64,000 nucleotides of DNA, taken from positions 62,001-126,000 of the forward strand of contig DASVWD010000140.1 of the NCBI GenBank assembly GCA_036389795.1, in the 5' to 3' direction. Positions 7,442-51,417 of the stretch are shown one piece after another. Every line of letters starts with the position of its first letter. Position 1 is the stretch's first letter. A model generated the notes under the pieces. The model searched no databases. It was not told where the DNA came from and worked only from the letters and a program-made list of their open reading frames with translations. This DNA is from Longimicrobium sp. Its GTDB lineage: Bacteria; Gemmatimonadota; Gemmatimonadetes; Longimicrobiales; Longimicrobiaceae. The translations under genes were made by a program, and so were the position numbers.

Positions 7442-7606
7442 AGGGGACAGGGAACAGGGGACAGGGGACGGCCTGCACGGCTCCCCGTCCTCCTCCCGGT
7501 CCCCGGACGAGAAGGCGAACGACGAAGAGAGGGTGAAGCGAGCGAGAAGGGCGGTCTCGAGATCGATTTTCGCTCGCTGTCCCCTGTACCCTGTCCCCTG
7601 TACCCT
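7442..7606. repeat. 165-bp inverted-repeat element inside the oxidase operon
   Basis: The left arm (7442-7469) is an array of GGGGACA/GGGAACA units; the right arm (7578-7606) is its approximate complement (GTCCCCTGTACCCTGTCCCC). The 108-bp centre shows no gene. The element fills almost the whole ctaD-ctaE gap, so it must be transcribed if the genes form an operon and could fold into a long hairpin. Confidence 0.75.
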
Positions 7607-7614
7607 GGCGGTTC

Positions 7615-22423: not shown

Positions 22424-22478
22424 GGGAAGTGCGTGAGTGCGTGAGTGCGTGAGTGCGAGAGTACGAGAGTACGCGCGG
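22424..22478. repeat. GTGAGTGC tandem array
   Basis: Units GTGCGTGA repeated about three times, then GTGCGAGA and GTACGAGA variants, starting right after the hydrolase stop codon. It is the same family as the octamer array at 247-320. A CTCCCGCGCAGCGGGGGAG hairpin (22510-22530) follows. Confidence 0.75.
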
Positions 22479-29166: not shown

Positions 29167-30080
29167 GACTGCTGGCTGGGCCTCGCCACCCGGGTGACGA
29201 GGACCTGATTCGATACATGGACCACCAGCTCCCCCGCGAGGAGCAGCGCCTGACGGGGGTGCACCTGCGCACCTGCGCCGAGTGCGCCGCGCGCTTCGAG
29301 GAGCTCAGGCGGCGCTCCACCGCGGTGAGCGGGTGGCTGGCCGACCTGGGGGTGGAGCTGCCGGACCCCAACAAGCGCGCCGTGGCCCTGGCCGCGGTGG
29401 AGCGCGCCCGCTTCCGCAGCTCGGCCACCGGCCCGCTGGGGAGCGGCTGGATGCGCGCGGCGGCCATGATCCTGCTGACGGTGGGCTTCGCCCTGGGGAC
29501 GGGGACGGGGCGGGCGTGGCTGGCCGGGGCCATCGTGCGCCTGGCGGGCGACGCCCCGCCGCCCGCGGTGGCCAGGGTGCTGGAGTGGCTGGGCGAGGAC
29601 GAGCGGCTCGCCGCGGACGCGCGGCTGCAGCGCCGCGGCGTGGCCGACTTCGAGGCGCCCTCGGCCGCCGGCCGCCAGGCCAGCCCCACCGACCCGCGCC
29701 CGCCGGTGGCGGCGCTCGCGCCGCCGCCGCCGGGGATGTCGCCGCCGCTGCGCTTCGAGCCCGAGGGGCCCGACGTGGCGCTCTACTTCGACAACATCCA
29801 GCGGGCCGGCTCGGCCACGGTGTGGATCCGCGACGTGCCGGCGGCCAGCGCGCAGGTGGTGGCGCACCTCGCGGGCGAGGCGCTGGTCCCCACGCCCGAG
29901 GGGCTCGCGGTGCGCAACCGCGGCGACTCGCGCGCCGACTACGAGATCACCGTCCCCTCGCGCTTCCGCTACGTGCGCATCCGCATCGGCGAGGGGCAGG
30001 AGATGTTCATCCCGATCCGCAAGAGCAAGCGCGAGTGGATCTGGACCATCAACCTGCAGCGCTCCGCCCTCGAACAGTAG
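29163..30080 (+). CDS. Anti-sigma factor with zinc-binding N-terminus
   Basis: A 305-residue membrane protein. The N-terminal anti-sigma domain has the HX3CXXC zinc motif (HLRTCAEC), one transmembrane helix (AAAMILLTVGFALGTGTG) follows, and the C-terminal part lies outside the membrane with a Pro-rich linker and a beta-rich domain ending EMFIPIRKSKREWIWTINL. It should hold the ECF factor inactive until a cell-envelope signal is received. It overlaps the sigma gene by 4 bp. Confidence 0.88.
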   Translation: MRLLAGPRHPGDEDLIRYMDHQLPREEQRLTGVHLRTCAECAARFEELRRRSTAVSGWLADLGVELPDPNKRAVALAAVERARFRSSATGPLGSGWMRAAAMILLTVGFALGTGTGRAWLAGAIVRLAGDAPPPAVARVLEWLGEDERLAADARLQRRGVADFEAPSAAGRQASPTDPRPPVAALAPPPPGMSPPLRFEPEGPDVALYFDNIQRAGSATVWIRDVPAASAQVVAHLAGEALVPTPEGLAVRNRGDSRADYEITVPSRFRYVRIRIGEGQEMFIPIRKSKREWIWTINLQRSALEQ

Positions 30081-38850: not shown

Positions 38851-38909
38851 TCTCACACAGAGAAACAGAGGAACAGAGAGATCCTCTCTTCCTCTGTTTC
38901 TCTGTGTGA
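38851..38909. repeat. TCTCACACAGAG-type hairpin, copy 4
   Basis: A compact copy with arms TCTCACACAGAGAAACAGAG (38851-38870) and the complement ending CTCTGTGTGA, loop about 10 bp. It lies immediately after the dnaE2 stop codon and could end or protect its transcript. Confidence 0.85.
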
Positions 38910-38916
38910 TCCAAAT

Positions 38917-41900
38917 TCAGTGGTAGTCGTGCGAGGCGACGACCTGGGCGGCGTCGTCCAGGCGGAGCTGGTAGAAGGTCTCGGCGCGCAGGTTGGTGAC
39001 GCCGTCCTCCTTCCCCAGCTTCCCGCGTACGGCCAGGATGCCGCTGCCGTTCAGGATCTCGCGCTGCTCGGCGTAGACCCTGGGGCTCACGATCACGTCC
39101 AGGCGCCCCGTCTCGTCTTCCAGCCCCACGAACACGAAGCCCTTGGCGGTGCCCGGCCGCTGGCGCACGATCACCACGCCCGCCGCGGTCACCGGCTCGC
39201 CCTGCCGGCGCCGCTCGTCGCGCAGCTCGGCCACCGTCTTCACCCCCAGCCCGCGCAGCCACTCGCGCAGGTGGCGCATGGGGTGGCCCTCCAGGTCGAA
39301 GCCGGTGGCGCGGTGGTCCAGCAGCGTGCGCTCGGTGGGCACCAGCGCGGGGATGCGCGCCTCGGGCGCCACCTCGGCCGGGGCCAGGGGGCCGCCGCTG
39401 CGGCGCGCGCGCAGCTCGCCCAGCACCGTCCAGAGCGCCTGCCGCGGGCCCCCTGCGATCCACGAGCGGAACGCCCCCGCCGCCGCCAGCGCGCGCAGCC
39501 CCGCCTCGGAGTCGAAGCGCGCCACCACGTCGGACGCGGAGGTGAACGGCCGCTTCGCCAGCTCCGCCTTGAGCCGGGCCCCCGCCACGGCGCCCAGGCC
39601 GCGGACGTAGCGCAGGCCCATGCGCACGGCGGGGTCGCCGCGGGGAGTGCCCAGTTCCAAGTGCCCAGTGCCCGGGAACTGCTCCGATCCTCCTGGGCCC
39701 TGGGCACTGGGCACTGGGCACTTCGGTTCCAAAGTGCAGTCCCACGCGCTGTGCGCCAGGTCGATCGGCCGCACCTCGACGCCGTGCTCCTTCGCGTCGT
39801 GGATCAGCGTGGAGACGGGGTAGAAGCCCATCGGCTGGGCGTTGAGGATCGAGCAGAGGTACTCGGCCGGGTAGTAGTGCCGCAGCCACGCGCTCGCGTA
39901 CGCCAGCAGCGCGAAGCTGATGGCGTGGCTCTCGGGGAAGGTGTAGCTGGCGCACGCCTCCAGCCACCCGAGCACCTTCTCGGCCGCCTCGCCCGCCACC
40001 CCGCGCGCCGCCATCCCCGCGCGGATCGCGGCGGTGGCCTTGTGCATCTCGTCGCTGGAGCGCTTGCGGCTCATCGCCCGGCGCAGGCGGTCGGCCTCGC
40101 CGGGGGTGCAGCCGCTCACCACGATGGCGCAGCGCATCAGCTGCTCCTGGAAGAGCGCCAGCCCGTGCGTGCGGGCCAGCACCGGCTCCAGGTCGGGGTG
40201 CGGGTACTCGGTGGGCGCCTGGCCGCGGCGGCGCGCCATCATCTCCTTCACCTGCCCGCCCAGCATCGGCCCCGGGCGGATGGCGCCCACGCTGATCACG
40301 ATGTCGTAGAACTCCCTGGGCTTCAGCCGCGGGAGGAAGTTGGCCTGCGCGCGGCTCTCGATCTGGAAGAGCCCCACCGTGTCGGCCGCGCGGATCTGGC
40401 GGTACACCTCGGCGTCGTCCATCGGCAGGCGGCCGATGTCGACCTCCCTGCCCCGCCACGCCTTCACGTGCTCCAGGCACTCGCCCAGGAGGCGCAGCAT
40501 CCCCAGCCCCAGCAGGTCGAACTTCGGCAGCCCCGCGTCGGCGCAGTCGTCCTTGTCCCACTGGATCACCGTGCGGTTGGGCATCGACGCGGGCTCGATG
40601 GGGACCACGGAGGAGAGCGGGCGCGCGGAGATCACGAAGCCGCCGCTGTGGATCCCCCGGTGGCGCGGCAGGCCGTCGAGCCCGGCGACGAGCTTCACCA
40701 GCGCCCGCGCCGTGGGCCCGGCGGGGTCGAGCCCCACCGCCTTCAGCGCCTTCCCCTCGGCCAGGTCCAGCCACTCGGCGGCGGTGCGCGCCGGGGTGTA
40801 CCCGTCGATCCGCTTGGCCAGGAAGTCGCCCGTCGCCACGGGGAGGCCGAGCACCCGCACGGCGTCGCGCACGGCGGAGCGCCCCCGGTACTCCACGTGG
40901 GTGCAGACCATGGCGGCGTGGTCGCGCCCGTACTTCTCGTAGACGTACTGCAGCACGCGCTCGCGGGCGTCCAGCGCGGCGAAGTCGATGTCGATGTCGG
41001 GCGGCTCGGGGCGCTCCAGCGAGAGGAAGCGCTCGAAGAGGAGCGAATGGGCCACCGGGTCCACCGCCGTCACCCGGAGCGCGTAGCAGACGATGGAGTT
41101 GGCCGCCGAGCCGCGCCCCTGGCACATGATCCCCCGCTCGCGTGCGAAGCGGCAGATGTCCCAGCACACCAGGAAGTGGTCGGCCAGCGAGAGCGCGCGG
41201 ATGGTGGAGAGCTCGTGCTCGAGCTGCTTCCAGTGCCGGTAGGTGGCCCCGGGGAGCCGCTCGCGCAGCCCCGTTCTGGCCAGGTGGTCCAGGTAGTCGT
41301 CGGCGTTTCCCCAGCGCGCGGGGGAGGGGAAGTGCGGGTGCACGGGCCCCAGCTTGCCGAAGACGAACCCTTCCGCCCGCTCGGCGATCTCGCGGGTGCG
41401 CCGGATCCCCTCGGGCGCGTGCCGCCAGCGGCGCGCCATCTCTTCGGGCGGCTGCAGGCACCACTCGGCCGAGGGGCGCAGCAGCCCCCGGCGGTGCGCC
41501 TCCTCCAGCGTCACCTGGCGGCGCACGCACACCAGCAGGTCGTGCACGGCGCGCGCTTCGGGCGTGGCGTAGTGCACGTCGTGGGTGACGGTCCAGGGCA
41601 CCCCCGTCTCCTTCGCCAGCTCCAGCAGGTCGGCCGAGAGCGACGCCTCGCCGTGGGTGCGGTGGTCCCACAGCTCCAGGTACAGCCGGTCGCCGAAGAC
41701 GTCGCGGAGCCGCCCCACCTCCTCGCGCGCCTCGGCGTAGCGCTCCTCCCGCAGGAGCCGGGGGACGCGCCCCTGGGGGCAGCCGGTCAGAGCGACCAGC
41801 CCCCCGGCGTACGCGGAGAGGTCGTGGAAGGAGATGCCGGGCTCGCCGCGGGGGGCCTGCATCCGCGCCTGAGTGAGCAGCGCGCAGAGGTTGCTCCACC

Positions 41901-42165
41901 CCCGCGGGTTTTCCACAATCAGGGTGAGGTGAGAGCGGTCCGCCAGCGTGATTTCCGCCCCGAAAACCGGCTGGATTCCGGCCTCCGCGCACGCCTTCGC
42001 GAAACGGACGGCGCCGCCCAGGTCGTCGTGGTCGGTGAGCGCGAGGGCGGGGTAGCCGAGCTCGGCCGCGCGGGCGGCGAGCGTCTCGGGCGTACTGGCG
42101 CCGTCGCTCAGCGAGAAGGCGCTGTGACAGTGCAGCTCTACGTAATCTCGTTGCCCCATCGTCAC
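38917..42165 (-). CDS. dnaE2: Error-prone DNA polymerase III alpha subunit DnaE2
   Basis: A 1082-residue translesion polymerase, the catalytic unit of the ImuA-ImuB-DnaE2 mutasome. The N-terminal PHP domain begins YVELHCHSAFSLSDGAS; the polymerase palm has PDIDIDFA with catalytic aspartates; the fingers have AMVCTHVEYRGRSAVRDAVR; and a C-terminal OB domain includes VIVRQRPGTAKGFVFVGLED. Residues about 814-843 (EPKCPVPSAQGPGG, then ELGTPRGD) interrupt the usual WDCTLE...AVRMGLRYVRGLG join. They are encoded by an inverted repeat (39645-39725), so a mobile hairpin seems to have entered the gene in frame. It ends the imuA-imuB-dnaE2 cluster, 52 bp after imuB. Confidence 0.95.
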   Translation of the reverse strand: MTMGQRDYVELHCHSAFSLSDGASTPETLAARAAELGYPALALTDHDDLGGAVRFAKACAEAGIQPVFGAEITLADRSHLTLIVENPRGWSNLCALLTQARMQAPRGEPGISFHDLSAYAGGLVALTGCPQGRVPRLLREERYAEAREEVGRLRDVFGDRLYLELWDHRTHGEASLSADLLELAKETGVPWTVTHDVHYATPEARAVHDLLVCVRRQVTLEEAHRRGLLRPSAEWCLQPPEEMARRWRHAPEGIRRTREIAERAEGFVFGKLGPVHPHFPSPARWGNADDYLDHLARTGLRERLPGATYRHWKQLEHELSTIRALSLADHFLVCWDICRFARERGIMCQGRGSAANSIVCYALRVTAVDPVAHSLLFERFLSLERPEPPDIDIDFAALDARERVLQYVYEKYGRDHAAMVCTHVEYRGRSAVRDAVRVLGLPVATGDFLAKRIDGYTPARTAAEWLDLAEGKALKAVGLDPAGPTARALVKLVAGLDGLPRHRGIHSGGFVISARPLSSVVPIEPASMPNRTVIQWDKDDCADAGLPKFDLLGLGMLRLLGECLEHVKAWRGREVDIGRLPMDDAEVYRQIRAADTVGLFQIESRAQANFLPRLKPREFYDIVISVGAIRPGPMLGGQVKEMMARRRGQAPTEYPHPDLEPVLARTHGLALFQEQLMRCAIVVSGCTPGEADRLRRAMSRKRSSDEMHKATAAIRAGMAARGVAGEAAEKVLGWLEACASYTFPESHAISFALLAYASAWLRHYYPAEYLCSILNAQPMGFYPVSTLIHDAKEHGVEVRPIDLAHSAWDCTLEPKCPVPSAQGPGGSEQFPGTGHLELGTPRGDPAVRMGLRYVRGLGAVAGARLKAELAKRPFTSASDVVARFDSEAGLRALAAAGAFRSWIAGGPRQALWTVLGELRARRSGGPLAPAEVAPEARIPALVPTERTLLDHRATGFDLEGHPMRHLREWLRGLGVKTVAELRDERRRQGEPVTAAGVVIVRQRPGTAKGFVFVGLEDETGRLDVIVSPRVYAEQREILNGSGILAVRGKLGKEDGVTNLRAETFYQLRLDDAAQVVASHDYH
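39645..39725. repeat. In-frame hairpin insertion in dnaE2
   Basis: A perfect 15-bp inverted repeat AAGTGCCCAGTGCCC (39659-39673) and complement (39709-39723), with extra GGGCACT units. The sequence resembles the intergenic short-period arrays, yet it stays open and in frame in dnaE2. Confidence 0.75.
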
Positions 42166-42217: not shown

Positions 42218-43636
42218 TCAATCGTACCACCCTTCCAGGTACCAGCCGCCGTCCGCCGCGTCACGGTAGAGGAGCCCGAGCCACCCGTCGGGAGACTCGA
42301 TTCGCCAGTACTCGCGGGCGGTGCCGCCGGCCCACCAGGCGCCCGAGACCCGCTCCGGGCCCTCGGCGATAGTTTTCCACAGCCTCGGTGGAAAACTCCC
42401 GGGCTCGCCCCCAAGTGCGTCCGTTGACGCGGCTTGGAAGTCGACCCCCAGCGGGCGGCGCCCGGCGCCCTCGCGGACGCGCACCGGGCGGGGCTCGGGG
42501 AGGCGGCGCAGGCACAGGGAGAGGACCCCGCGCCCGAGCTCCGGCCCCTCCTCCTGCGGCTCCGGCGCCGGGGGGTGCGCGCGGGTGAAGGGGGCGATGC
42601 CGGCGCTCCCCCGCGCGTCCCAGGCGGCGTGCTCGGCGGGGAGGTGTGCCCCGTGGCGGACGGCCCCGGAGAGCGCCCCCTCGCCCCAGCGCGCGAAGAC
42701 GGGGAGCAGCGCGGCGTGGAGCGCGCCGGGGTCGGGCGCGGGGGCCTGGAAGGCGTCGAGCTGGTCGGCGCGGGGAACACCGTCCTCGGCCAGCTCCAGC
42801 CGCACCCCGGCCACGGGCCCGGCCGGCTGGCGTTCCTCCACCGCGCGGCGGCAGAGGTCGGCCAGCACGCGCTCCTCGGCCGTGGGGCGCGCGGGGCGCA
42901 CCTCGCGTGCGTCGTCCACCACGCCCTCGGCGGTCTCGGCGCGCAGCACCAGGCGGAGCCGCGCGGGGATGCGCTGGCGGCGGCCGAGCTGGGCGCAGAC
43001 GGAGGCGATCAGGCCGGGGAGGACGAAGCGCAGCGGCTCGGCGCCGGCGATCGGCGGCTCGAACTCGGCCTCGGCGGCCACGGCGCCGGGATCGGCGGGG
43101 GGGAAGGGCCAGCGGCCGTCCTCGGCGCGCGCCAGCCGCCACGCCGCCACCCCCGCCGGCCCGAAGCGCAGCTCCACGTCGGCCGGGGAGAGCGCGGCCA
43201 GGTCTCCGCACGTCTTCAGCCCCAGCAGCTCGAGCGTCTCGCGCAGGTCCGCCGGCATGGGCACCAGCGCCAGCGAGCGCCGGCGCAGGTAGCGCGCGTC
43301 GGCGCCCGGGGGGACGACGCGCGAGTGGGTGCCGCGCTCGCGCGTGGCCGCCGCCGCGGCGATGCAGCTGCCGGCGATCCCCACCTTCGCGTCGGGGAAG
43401 CCGGCCTCGGCGGCGGCGTCCAGCAGCGCGCGGGCCACGGCCGCGTCGCCGCCACGGCGCTCCATCCCCCCGGCGTCGGCCCAGAGCGCGCGCGGGTGGC
43501 CGCGCACGGGGGTCACCCGCGGCGCGGCCCGGAGCAGCGCCCCGGCGAGCACGACCTGCGCCTCAGGTCCAGGACGCGGCGCGCCGGTCGGGGGCGAAGG
43601 CAGGCGGATGCAGGCGATGCGTCGGTTCGTGGACAA
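42218..43636 (-). CDS. imuB: ImuB, inactive Y-family polymerase-like mutasome protein
   Basis: A 472-residue protein matching ImuB: a Y-family-like N-terminus that has lost the catalytic acidic residues (expected for ImuB), LELLGLKTCGDLAALSPADVELRFG (helix-hairpin-helix) and a C-terminal domain ending with RESPDGWLGLLYRD-type sequence. ImuB links DnaE2 to the sliding clamp and to ImuA. The product begins MSTNRRIACIRLP. The gene starts 74 bp inside imuA, so it is translationally coupled. Confidence 0.88.
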   Translation of the reverse strand: MSTNRRIACIRLPSPPTGAPRPGPEAQVVLAGALLRAAPRVTPVRGHPRALWADAGGMERRGGDAAVARALLDAAAEAGFPDAKVGIAGSCIAAAAATRERGTHSRVVPPGADARYLRRRSLALVPMPADLRETLELLGLKTCGDLAALSPADVELRFGPAGVAAWRLARAEDGRWPFPPADPGAVAAEAEFEPPIAGAEPLRFVLPGLIASVCAQLGRRQRIPARLRLVLRAETAEGVVDDAREVRPARPTAEERVLADLCRRAVEERQPAGPVAGVRLELAEDGVPRADQLDAFQAPAPDPGALHAALLPVFARWGEGALSGAVRHGAHLPAEHAAWDARGSAGIAPFTRAHPPAPEPQEEGPELGRGVLSLCLRRLPEPRPVRVREGAGRRPLGVDFQAASTDALGGEPGSFPPRLWKTIAEGPERVSGAWWAGGTAREYWRIESPDGWLGLLYRDAADGGWYLEGWYD

Positions 43637-44306
43637 GCTCGACCTCTCGTTCTCCCGCGCGCGCGCCCGACCCCTTGGCCAGGCGCACCCCCGAGCGCCG
43701 CCGGAAGCGGGCGCCGGTGCCGAGCCCCGCGCCCGCTTCGGCCTCGCGGCGGAACTCCAGCCGCGCGTCGGCGCGCCACCCGGGGGCCGCCCCGGCGGTG
43801 GAGACCAGGAGCGCGGCGTCGGTCTCGCGGGCCAGGGCGCGCAGCCGGTGCAGCTCGGTGGCGTCGGGGGCGGGGCCGTCCAGCACCACCAGGCCGAAGG
43901 CGCCCGTGCGCAGGAGCTGCTCGGCCACCCAGGCGCCCTCGCCCGCGTGCCCGGGGCCCGGCGGGCGCGCCACCCACAGCCCCGGCGCGGAGTGCCCGTC
44001 GGGGCCGCACCAGGCGGCGGGGTCCAGGGTGCAGGTGGCGTCCACCAGCGCCACCAGCGCCTCGCGGCAGGCGGCCTCCACCAGCGCGCGCACGGCGGCC
44101 GTGCGCCCCGAGGTGGCCTCGCCGGTCCACAGGGTGACGGCGCGCCGGGGCACGCCCCCGGGGAGGAGCTGGTCGAGCGCGCGCACCCCCGTCCGGAAGC
44201 CGGGGCGCGCGCGCTCCGGGGCCTCGCCCGGCAGGGGGCGGATCGCGCTCCCGAACCGCTTCTCCAGCTCGGAGCGGAGCCTGATCAGGTCTGCGGCTGC
44301 GCTCAC
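43563..44306 (-). CDS. imuA: ImuA, RecA-like mutasome protein
   Basis: A 247-residue RecA/SulA-like protein. It has VSAAADLIRLRSELEKRFG, then FRTGVRALDQLLPGGVPRRAV, the segment that in RecA relatives leads into Walker A (here degenerate: GEATSGRTAAV). GTG 44306 is chosen because GGAGG lies 5 bases upstream; upstream reading to 44396 would cross the AT-rich promoter region. It heads the damage-inducible cluster with imuB and dnaE2. Confidence 0.85.
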   Translation of the reverse strand: MSAAADLIRLRSELEKRFGSAIRPLPGEAPERARPGFRTGVRALDQLLPGGVPRRAVTLWTGEATSGRTAAVRALVEAACREALVALVDATCTLDPAAWCGPDGHSAPGLWVARPPGPGHAGEGAWVAEQLLRTGAFGLVVLDGPAPDATELHRLRALARETDAALLVSTAGAAPGWRADARLEFRREAEAGAGLGTGARFRRRSGVRLAKGSGARAGEREVELVHEPTHRLHPPAFAPDRRAASWT

Positions 44307-44806
44307 GGTGTCCTCCGGGTAACGCTCTCTGGACGCACGGTGGCTGCAATGAATCTCTCGCTGTGCAACAGTAATACCGAAAACAAACCGAAACAAGGTA
44401 AGAGAGCTGTAAACATCGTATAAATTCCAATTTCCTTGCCACTGCTGGACTTGCGCGAGAGCGGAAGCTGCATGCCACGGGAAAGGTGCCGTGCACTCCG
44501 TTTACTTATTGCGCGTCGACCCGTGCACCCTGTTTACTTCGTTCTTGAAATCGGGGGAATGCGCGAAAGTGCACGAAGTGAAAGGAAGCTGGTAGCGAGA
44601 CCGCAGGAGAAGACCGGAAGATGCGTCTACGATGTAAACCGTTCATTGCTGACGATGGATGATCACCACATTGCACGCCGGGTGATGGTCGCCACGCGGC
44701 GTGAAGAGGTCGTGCACGGAGGATGCGGGAGAGTGTCAGAAGCGCGGACGGGAGGACGTTCCCGCACCGGCACCGAGATCACCCCACCCGATCCAGCAGG
44801 CAACCG
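44307..44806. other. AT-rich regulatory region between imuA and the esterase gene
   Basis: About 500 bp, distinctly lower in GC than the surroundings, between divergent genes. It contains GTTTAC or its complement four times: 44409-44414, 44499-44504, 44532-44537 and 44633-44638. The two central ones are part of a 17-bp direct repeat GTGCAC-Y-C-Y-GTTTACTT (44491 and 44523, 32 bp apart). This is a likely control region of the mutasome. I see no classical LexA box (neither GAACN4GTTC nor GTTCN7GTTC). A small plus-strand ORF crossing it is not supported. Confidence 0.55.
44491..44539. promoter_or_regulatory. Direct repeat GTGCAC(C/T)C(C/T)GTTTACTT
   Basis: Two 17-bp copies (44491-44507, 44523-44539) that differ at 2 positions, 32 bp apart, i.e. 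about three DNA turns. Such spacing fits binding by one protein on the same face of the helix. Confidence 0.5.
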
Positions 44807-51110: not shown

Positions 51111-51365
51111 CGGCTCTCTCCCGAAGTCAGGTGTGGTGCTCCACCGCCCGACCGCGCGGTGTGCGGGCGCGCGAAGGGGGCGCCCGCCGTCGTGGTGTCG
51201 CCCCCAAAAGCATAGTCCGGGCCACGTCCGTAACTACGCGTTTACAATGATGTTGCCATGAGTCCGGCTCAGCCATCGCCGGACGGAGTGCACGCGGTTC
51301 TTGTTCGGGAAGTGCGGACGGGCAGGGGAACGGATGTGGGGCTACCCGGACGGGTGCGAGGGGAA

Positions 51366-51417
51366 GTGCGTGAGTGCGTGAGTGCGAAAGTGCGAAGTGC
51401 GAGAGTACGGAAGAAAG
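51366..51417. repeat. GTGCGTGA/GTGCGAAA tandem array
   Basis: Five to six degenerate 7-9 bp units (GTGCGTGA, GTGCGAAA, GTGCGAAG, GTGCGAGA), close to the 3' end of the minus-strand gene at 51437 and similar to 22424-22478. The rest of 51111-51436 holds only an AT-rich spot at 51225-51260 that may include the aceB promoter. Confidence 0.7.

Follow-up and report, generated by a model that had tools for sequence, protein, structure and literature searches.

Palindromic repeats have already been found inside dnaE2 genes and in DnaE, as REPs and as Rickettsia palindromic elements (RPE), respectively (PMC3733652, PMC3767692). One RPE lies inside DNA polymerase III alpha, and different RPE groups occur at the same gene position; whether a hotspot or slow divergence stands behind different palindromes at one gene site was left open (PMC3767692). 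Among REPs located in genes, dnaE2 and other repair genes are found among the matches, and in some species no other genes are decorated; repair genes, dnaE2 included, were reported as favoured in-gene REP sites, a link to mutators was speculated, and REPs in genes of one functional category sit at different sites, recB apart (PMC3733652). Cyanobacterial STRR (short tandemly repeated repetitive) sequences are hairpin arrays of 7-bp units, located mostly between genes and of unknown function (PMC2670836). PARCELs are dispersed protein-coding DNA with dyad symmetry (PMC2996958). What we add here are short-period hairpins that are probably translated, one DnaE2 site at which they recur and their fast turnover in place.

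The window, a 64,000-nt stretch of a Longimicrobium sp. genome (the host, G000), contains a dnaE2 gene (38917..42165, minus strand) for a 1082-aa error-prone homologue of DNA polymerase III alpha (NCBIfam NF004225, 1082.7 bits) with the Pfam domains PHP, DNA_pol3_alpha, DNA_pol3_finger, HHH_6 and OB. Upstream of it, on the same strand, are an imuB-like gene (Y-family-like, IMS_C; 42218..43636) and an imuA-like gene (RecA-like; 43563..44396), the latter matching NF033429 with 43 bits, below the curated cut-off of 150. Together the three genes form an imuA-imuB-dnaE2 operon.

A 77-bp hairpin repeat element (39646..39722, no strand assigned) lies within dnaE2. Its left arm of AGTGCCC units (39646..39677, plus strand) and right arm of GGGCACT units (39691..39722, plus strand), 32 nt each and 88% complementary, enclose a 13-nt loop (39678..39690). 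The 15-bp perfect inverted repeat that the earlier note had seen inside the reading frame is present at 39659..39673 and 39709..39723 (both plus strand) and turned out to be the core of this larger hairpin. In folding calculations the mRNA form reached −54.3 kcal/mol (z −4.7; none of 200 shuffles equalled it), and the DNA form had a z-score of −5.9. An accidental GC-rich inverted repeat was rejected as an explanation: in 460 kb of sequence, coding DNA contained six other 13-bp inverted repeats, and none of them was a unit array. The element is in frame, encodes approximately residues K815–T840 (∼26 codons) and leaves the 1082-aa ORF open throughout; the predicted tryptic peptide of the insert is CPVPSAQGPGGSEQFPGTGHLELGTPR. 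An Rfam search with the element gave nothing above the gathering score, only sub-threshold look-alikes of miRNA hairpins.

In comparison with the described systems, the dnaE2 element is STRR-like in make-up and RPE-like in behaviour. Like the palindromic elements of Rickettsia and Wolbachia (RPE, WPE), it is a dispersed palindrome residing in frame in a protein gene. RPEs sit in solvent-exposed regions, as our insert is predicted to do from a structural model, and different repeat families occupy one gene position in related species, as at the DnaE2 site. However, RPEs are 100–150 bp long and form defined sequence families, which sets them apart, by description, from a 77-bp element of AGTGCCC units. 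In our case arrays of 7–8 bp units make up the arms around a free loop, copies seldom lie in genes (2 of 149), and the host, with its large genome, comes from a lineage rich in GC. The parallel with RPE drawn in the earlier note therefore extends to behaviour (insertion in frame, a surface loop, swaps of families at the site) but not to family membership (units, sequence). The GTAG/CGTC REPs share with the AGTGC hairpins an intergenic palindromic character and a small number of in-gene copies, dnaE2 being among the genes hit; the AGTGC hairpins differ in their much longer stems, tandem short units and reuse of a single DnaE2 site. STRR arrays resemble the AGTGC arrays in having 7-bp units (7–8 bp here), in the folding of many of them as hairpins and in their mostly intergenic position; as described they are intergenic, whereas the dnaE2 copy is predicted to be translated in a conserved protein, and the likeness is one of described layout. 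PARCELs, also dispersed coding DNA with dyad symmetry, encode, within repeat proteins, an amphipathic 25-residue repeat that is conserved, while the DnaE2 insert has no conserved peptide. We found no useful literature on repeats of Longimicrobium.

The unit of the hairpin belongs to AGTGC(N)2-3 arrays of 7–8 bp units dispersed in the host genome. Exact AAGTGCCCAGTGCCC has 32 matches there (control 0), and the pattern AAGTGCN{1,3}AGTGCN{1,3}AGTGC has 634 (control 2), which bears out the likeness to the intergenic short-period arrays of this genome suggested earlier. In 1.88 Mb of the host genome (about a quarter) we identified 156 elements with at least three units. In all 48 two-armed elements the AGTGC arm comes first; within a single element the arms are alike in unit type in 28 of 48 cases (16.4 expected from shuffling, a value as high not being reached in any of 2000 shuffles). 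Only two of 149 scorable arrays, those in dnaE2 and thiC, are located in genes, the rest being intergenic, while random 80-bp placements were scored as in-gene in 47.5% of cases (binomial P ∼1.7e-38); these counts depend on our own simple coding caller. In-gene copies are thus strongly selected against, permissive loops excepted. The status of dnaE2 as the sole gene with an array, suggested by a survey of 1.24 Mb, was dropped when the 1.88 Mb survey added thiC.

Close relatives carry the empty site. Genomes G014 and G015, with dnaE2 of the same lineage as in the host, have no insert: alignment gives a block of 48 residues as compared with 72 in the host protein, with the WDCTLE and AVRxGLR flanks conserved. 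The linker has thus gained 24 residues, so the figure of about 30 extra residues given earlier was slightly high. The family does not strictly join WDCTLE to AVRxGLR directly, as had been supposed; in a sample of 80 DnaE2 proteins from many phyla the two motifs are mostly ∼3–10 residues apart. The insert peptide of the host was present in none of these 80 aligned proteins, and the explanation of the insert as a peptide conserved in distant DnaE2 proteins was discarded. Distant proteins with extra length at this site often owe it to different hairpins, each specific to its genome.

AGTGC arrays occur in all ten members of the genus (39 to 837 matches) and are absent from G014 and G015 (0 matches). 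Within the genus, arrays and dnaE2 insert co-occur in the lineage with the host type of dnaE2: all six members with this type (G000, G001, G002, G007, G008 and G009) have an AGTGC hairpin in the linker. The hairpins differ in length and loop; across the genus the DnaE2 loop measures from ∼26 to 60 residues. Four other genomes (G003–G006) have the arrays, but their DnaE2 is of another type (46% identity) with a short uninterrupted linker. The presence of two DnaE2 lineages, ∼46% identical, in one genus (the second one represented by L010, L011, L012 and L020 of G005, G006, G004 and G003, respectively) suggests that some members of the genus had their dnaE2 replaced through horizontal transfer. 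The DnaE2 linker of G011 carries a degenerate GTACGA insert. Overall, linkers with hairpins were found in 2 of the 80 proteins of the wide sample and in ∼10 of 30 in the order of the host. In the L030 protein (G031:C99) the linker is long and composite (∼170 residues), with several repeat pieces including CACAGAG-like units and a duplicated AVNAVNERAESQ segment; it looks like several insertions stacked on one another.

Hairpins at the DnaE2 site of other hosts are made of other repeats. Two members of the same order have a GAATCC hairpin (G033; 21 matches in its genome, 0 in G000 and G008) and a GTACCC hairpin (G025; 62 matches vs 2 in G000). A member of Acidobacteria (L169) has a GTTTCNA hairpin (14 genome matches vs 0), with the repeats of this host elsewhere located mostly between genes, and a member of Pirellulales (L173) has a TCTCCNNN hairpin (20 genome matches vs 0). 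In a DnaE2 phylogeny from which the linker was left out, the best tree requires six changes of the hairpin label, and at least four changes are forced by well-supported branches. Unrelated bacteria have filled one DnaE2 loop with hairpins of their own, differing repeat families.

The site is recurrent and not exclusive, given that thiC, metH and a gene for an SMC-like protein are hit as well. In the host, a GTGCCCA hairpin is in frame in thiC (L316:9269-9348; G000:C243, about 29269-29348), and the same ThiC loop is filled in G005 and G006 by hairpins of different families; in three examined genomes (G000, G005 and G006) the hairpins are in one loop, and other genomes have other forms of this loop. 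In G033, a GAATCC hairpin/array is in frame in metH, between the pterin-binding and B12-binding domains (L117:1443-1529), and another is in frame in the SMC-like protein (L112:1500-1524); two more GAATCC loci (L111 and L120) are possibly near the starts of thymidylate kinase-like and pyruvate dehydrogenase E2-like genes.

Comparison of close pairs indicates how the hairpins change. The dnaE2 flanks of G008 and G002 are 93% and 91% identical, but no similarity is detectable between their inserts, which are 105 and 192 nt long and consist of AGTGCCC and AGTGCGA units, respectively. The thiC hairpins of G005 and G006 are of equal length and both strong; the flanks are 94% and 98% identical and the arms are identical at 13 of 30 and 11 of 30 positions. 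Stepwise compensatory covariation was considered for these thiC arms and rejected: there are 4–7 both-sided changes, and 13–16 pairs are broken when one structure is superimposed on the other, therefore the hairpin was replaced, not compensated step by step. Whole hairpins are thus exchanged in place, faster than point mutation could manage. As the arms in both pairs (G008/G002 in dnaE2, G005/G006 in thiC) are unrelated while the flanks are 91–98% identical, slow divergence is argued against as the source of different palindromes at one gene site.

In the AlphaFold2 model of DnaE2 (mean pLDDT 87.8), whose overall fold agrees with solved structures of Pol III alpha, the insert is placed in an unstructured loop at the tip of a beta-hairpin: residues 819–841 have pLDDT <50, and the insert makes the turn between strands 811–814 and 845–848, adjoining the HHH_6 region. 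According to the model, the insert should be a disordered, floppy surface loop between the fingers and HhH regions.

We propose that the dnaE2 segment is, very probably, an in-frame copy of the dispersed short-period hairpin of the genome, tolerated in a loop and swapped over time. A copy of a genomic hairpin (inverted AGTGC(N)2-3 arms, variable loop) would land in frame in dnaE2 and would be tolerated because the site, flanked by the fingers and HhH regions, is the tip of a surface beta-hairpin. The copy would be transcribed and translated within DnaE2 to give a flexible loop with no conserved sequence, on which selection would act only to keep the reading frame open; presumably the insert is functionally neutral or nearly so. 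In an occupied loop, other hairpins, from the same genomic family or a different one, would take the place of the resident one at a rate far above that of change in the flanks. Movement could come about by hairpin-templated copying or template switching during replication and repair, or through a transposase (Y1_Tnp, for example); neither a target-site duplication nor a mobilising enzyme was identified, and we lean towards movement by copying with no dedicated transposase. A bolder version, which we offer as speculation with the odds against it, is that a sequence-independent active process replaces whole hairpins in place and that the DnaE2 fingers–HhH loop is its preferred site across phyla, with error-prone synthesis by the mutasome perhaps copying them; since it was the initial finding that directed the search to DnaE2, a preference for this protein over others is suggested but not proven.

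The hairpins could instead represent a divergent class of REPs, non-autonomous transposons mobilised by RAYT-like transposases of the Y1 type. Y1_Tnp genes are indeed present in all six genus members searched (two in G000, at C51:2308-2643 and C117:30695-31030), but they are also present in G014 and G015, both of which lack AGTGC arrays. Furthermore, the GTAG/CGTC tags that define the REP superfamilies are absent from the 77-bp element, and REP tags are not enriched at the edges of the 156 genomic elements as compared with positions 400 bp away (17 vs 17; 24 vs 46), which leaves this mode of movement rather doubtful.

Somewhat less likely still is a selected role, in which the hairpin would tune the mutasome binding or the polymerase activity of DnaE2, or its DNA or RNA form would regulate the operon, adaptively, as speculated for REPs (PMC3733652). 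Such a role would fit the repeated use of a single site, in five lineages or more, the finding of just one other in-gene array in a quarter of the genome and the reported preference of in-gene REPs for repair genes. Yet the loop is conserved neither in sequence nor in length, genomes G003–G006 have arrays and an uninterrupted DnaE2 of the other type, and thiC, metH and the SMC-like gene also carry such hairpins.

We consider it very unlikely that a fast-evolving Pro/Ser/Gly-rich linker simply grew by slippage, the palindrome being accidental. Some relatives (L019 and L029) do have long linkers in which no clear hairpin is formed, and, the arms being tandem repeats, changes in length are surely in part due to slippage; slippage, though, does not yield inverted arms, and the z-scores of the linker hairpins go down to −10.9. 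The units, moreover, are dispersed in the genome of each host and absent or rare in the other genomes tested, and this host-specific matching largely refutes the slippage explanation.

The coding frame is free of stops in all DnaE2 inserts examined, and the other two frames contain up to seven (4 and 4 in L003, 3 and 7 in L030, 0 and 3 in L169, 2 and 0 in L002); therefore selection maintains the coding frame, and we infer that the insert is translated rather than skipped. Translational bypass or RNA excision, as in mobile bypass elements, adding nothing to the protein, is hardly credible, as selection for translation and not bypass explains this pattern of stops, even though the mRNA hairpin is strong (−54 kcal/mol) and the element is dispensable in relatives.

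If the insert is, as proposed, a tolerated copy of a genomic hairpin, non-coding repeats are seen here becoming protein loops, with the states before, after and exchanged available among close relatives. The reuse of one DnaE2 loop by repeats of unrelated hosts makes the preference of palindromes for replication and repair genes (PMC3733652) testable at a defined site.

All sequences used are draft assemblies, and short-read assembly is prone to failure at palindromes. The CACAGAG family, a short-period hairpin of which lies in the gap just 3′ of dnaE2 (38853..38909, no strand assigned), has 248 CTCTGTGTNCTCNGTG matches in the genome, many of them no more than 100 bases from the end of a contig, as would be expected if the assembly broke at these palindromes. 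The window also contains pure 8-bp tandem arrays of AGTGC type (247-320, 1519-1604, 22428-22470 and 51365-51406; up to 10.8 copies), several of which have no inverted partner, and a further heptamer family of the CTGTCCC/GTCCCCC type at 7577-7607 and 2386-2413.
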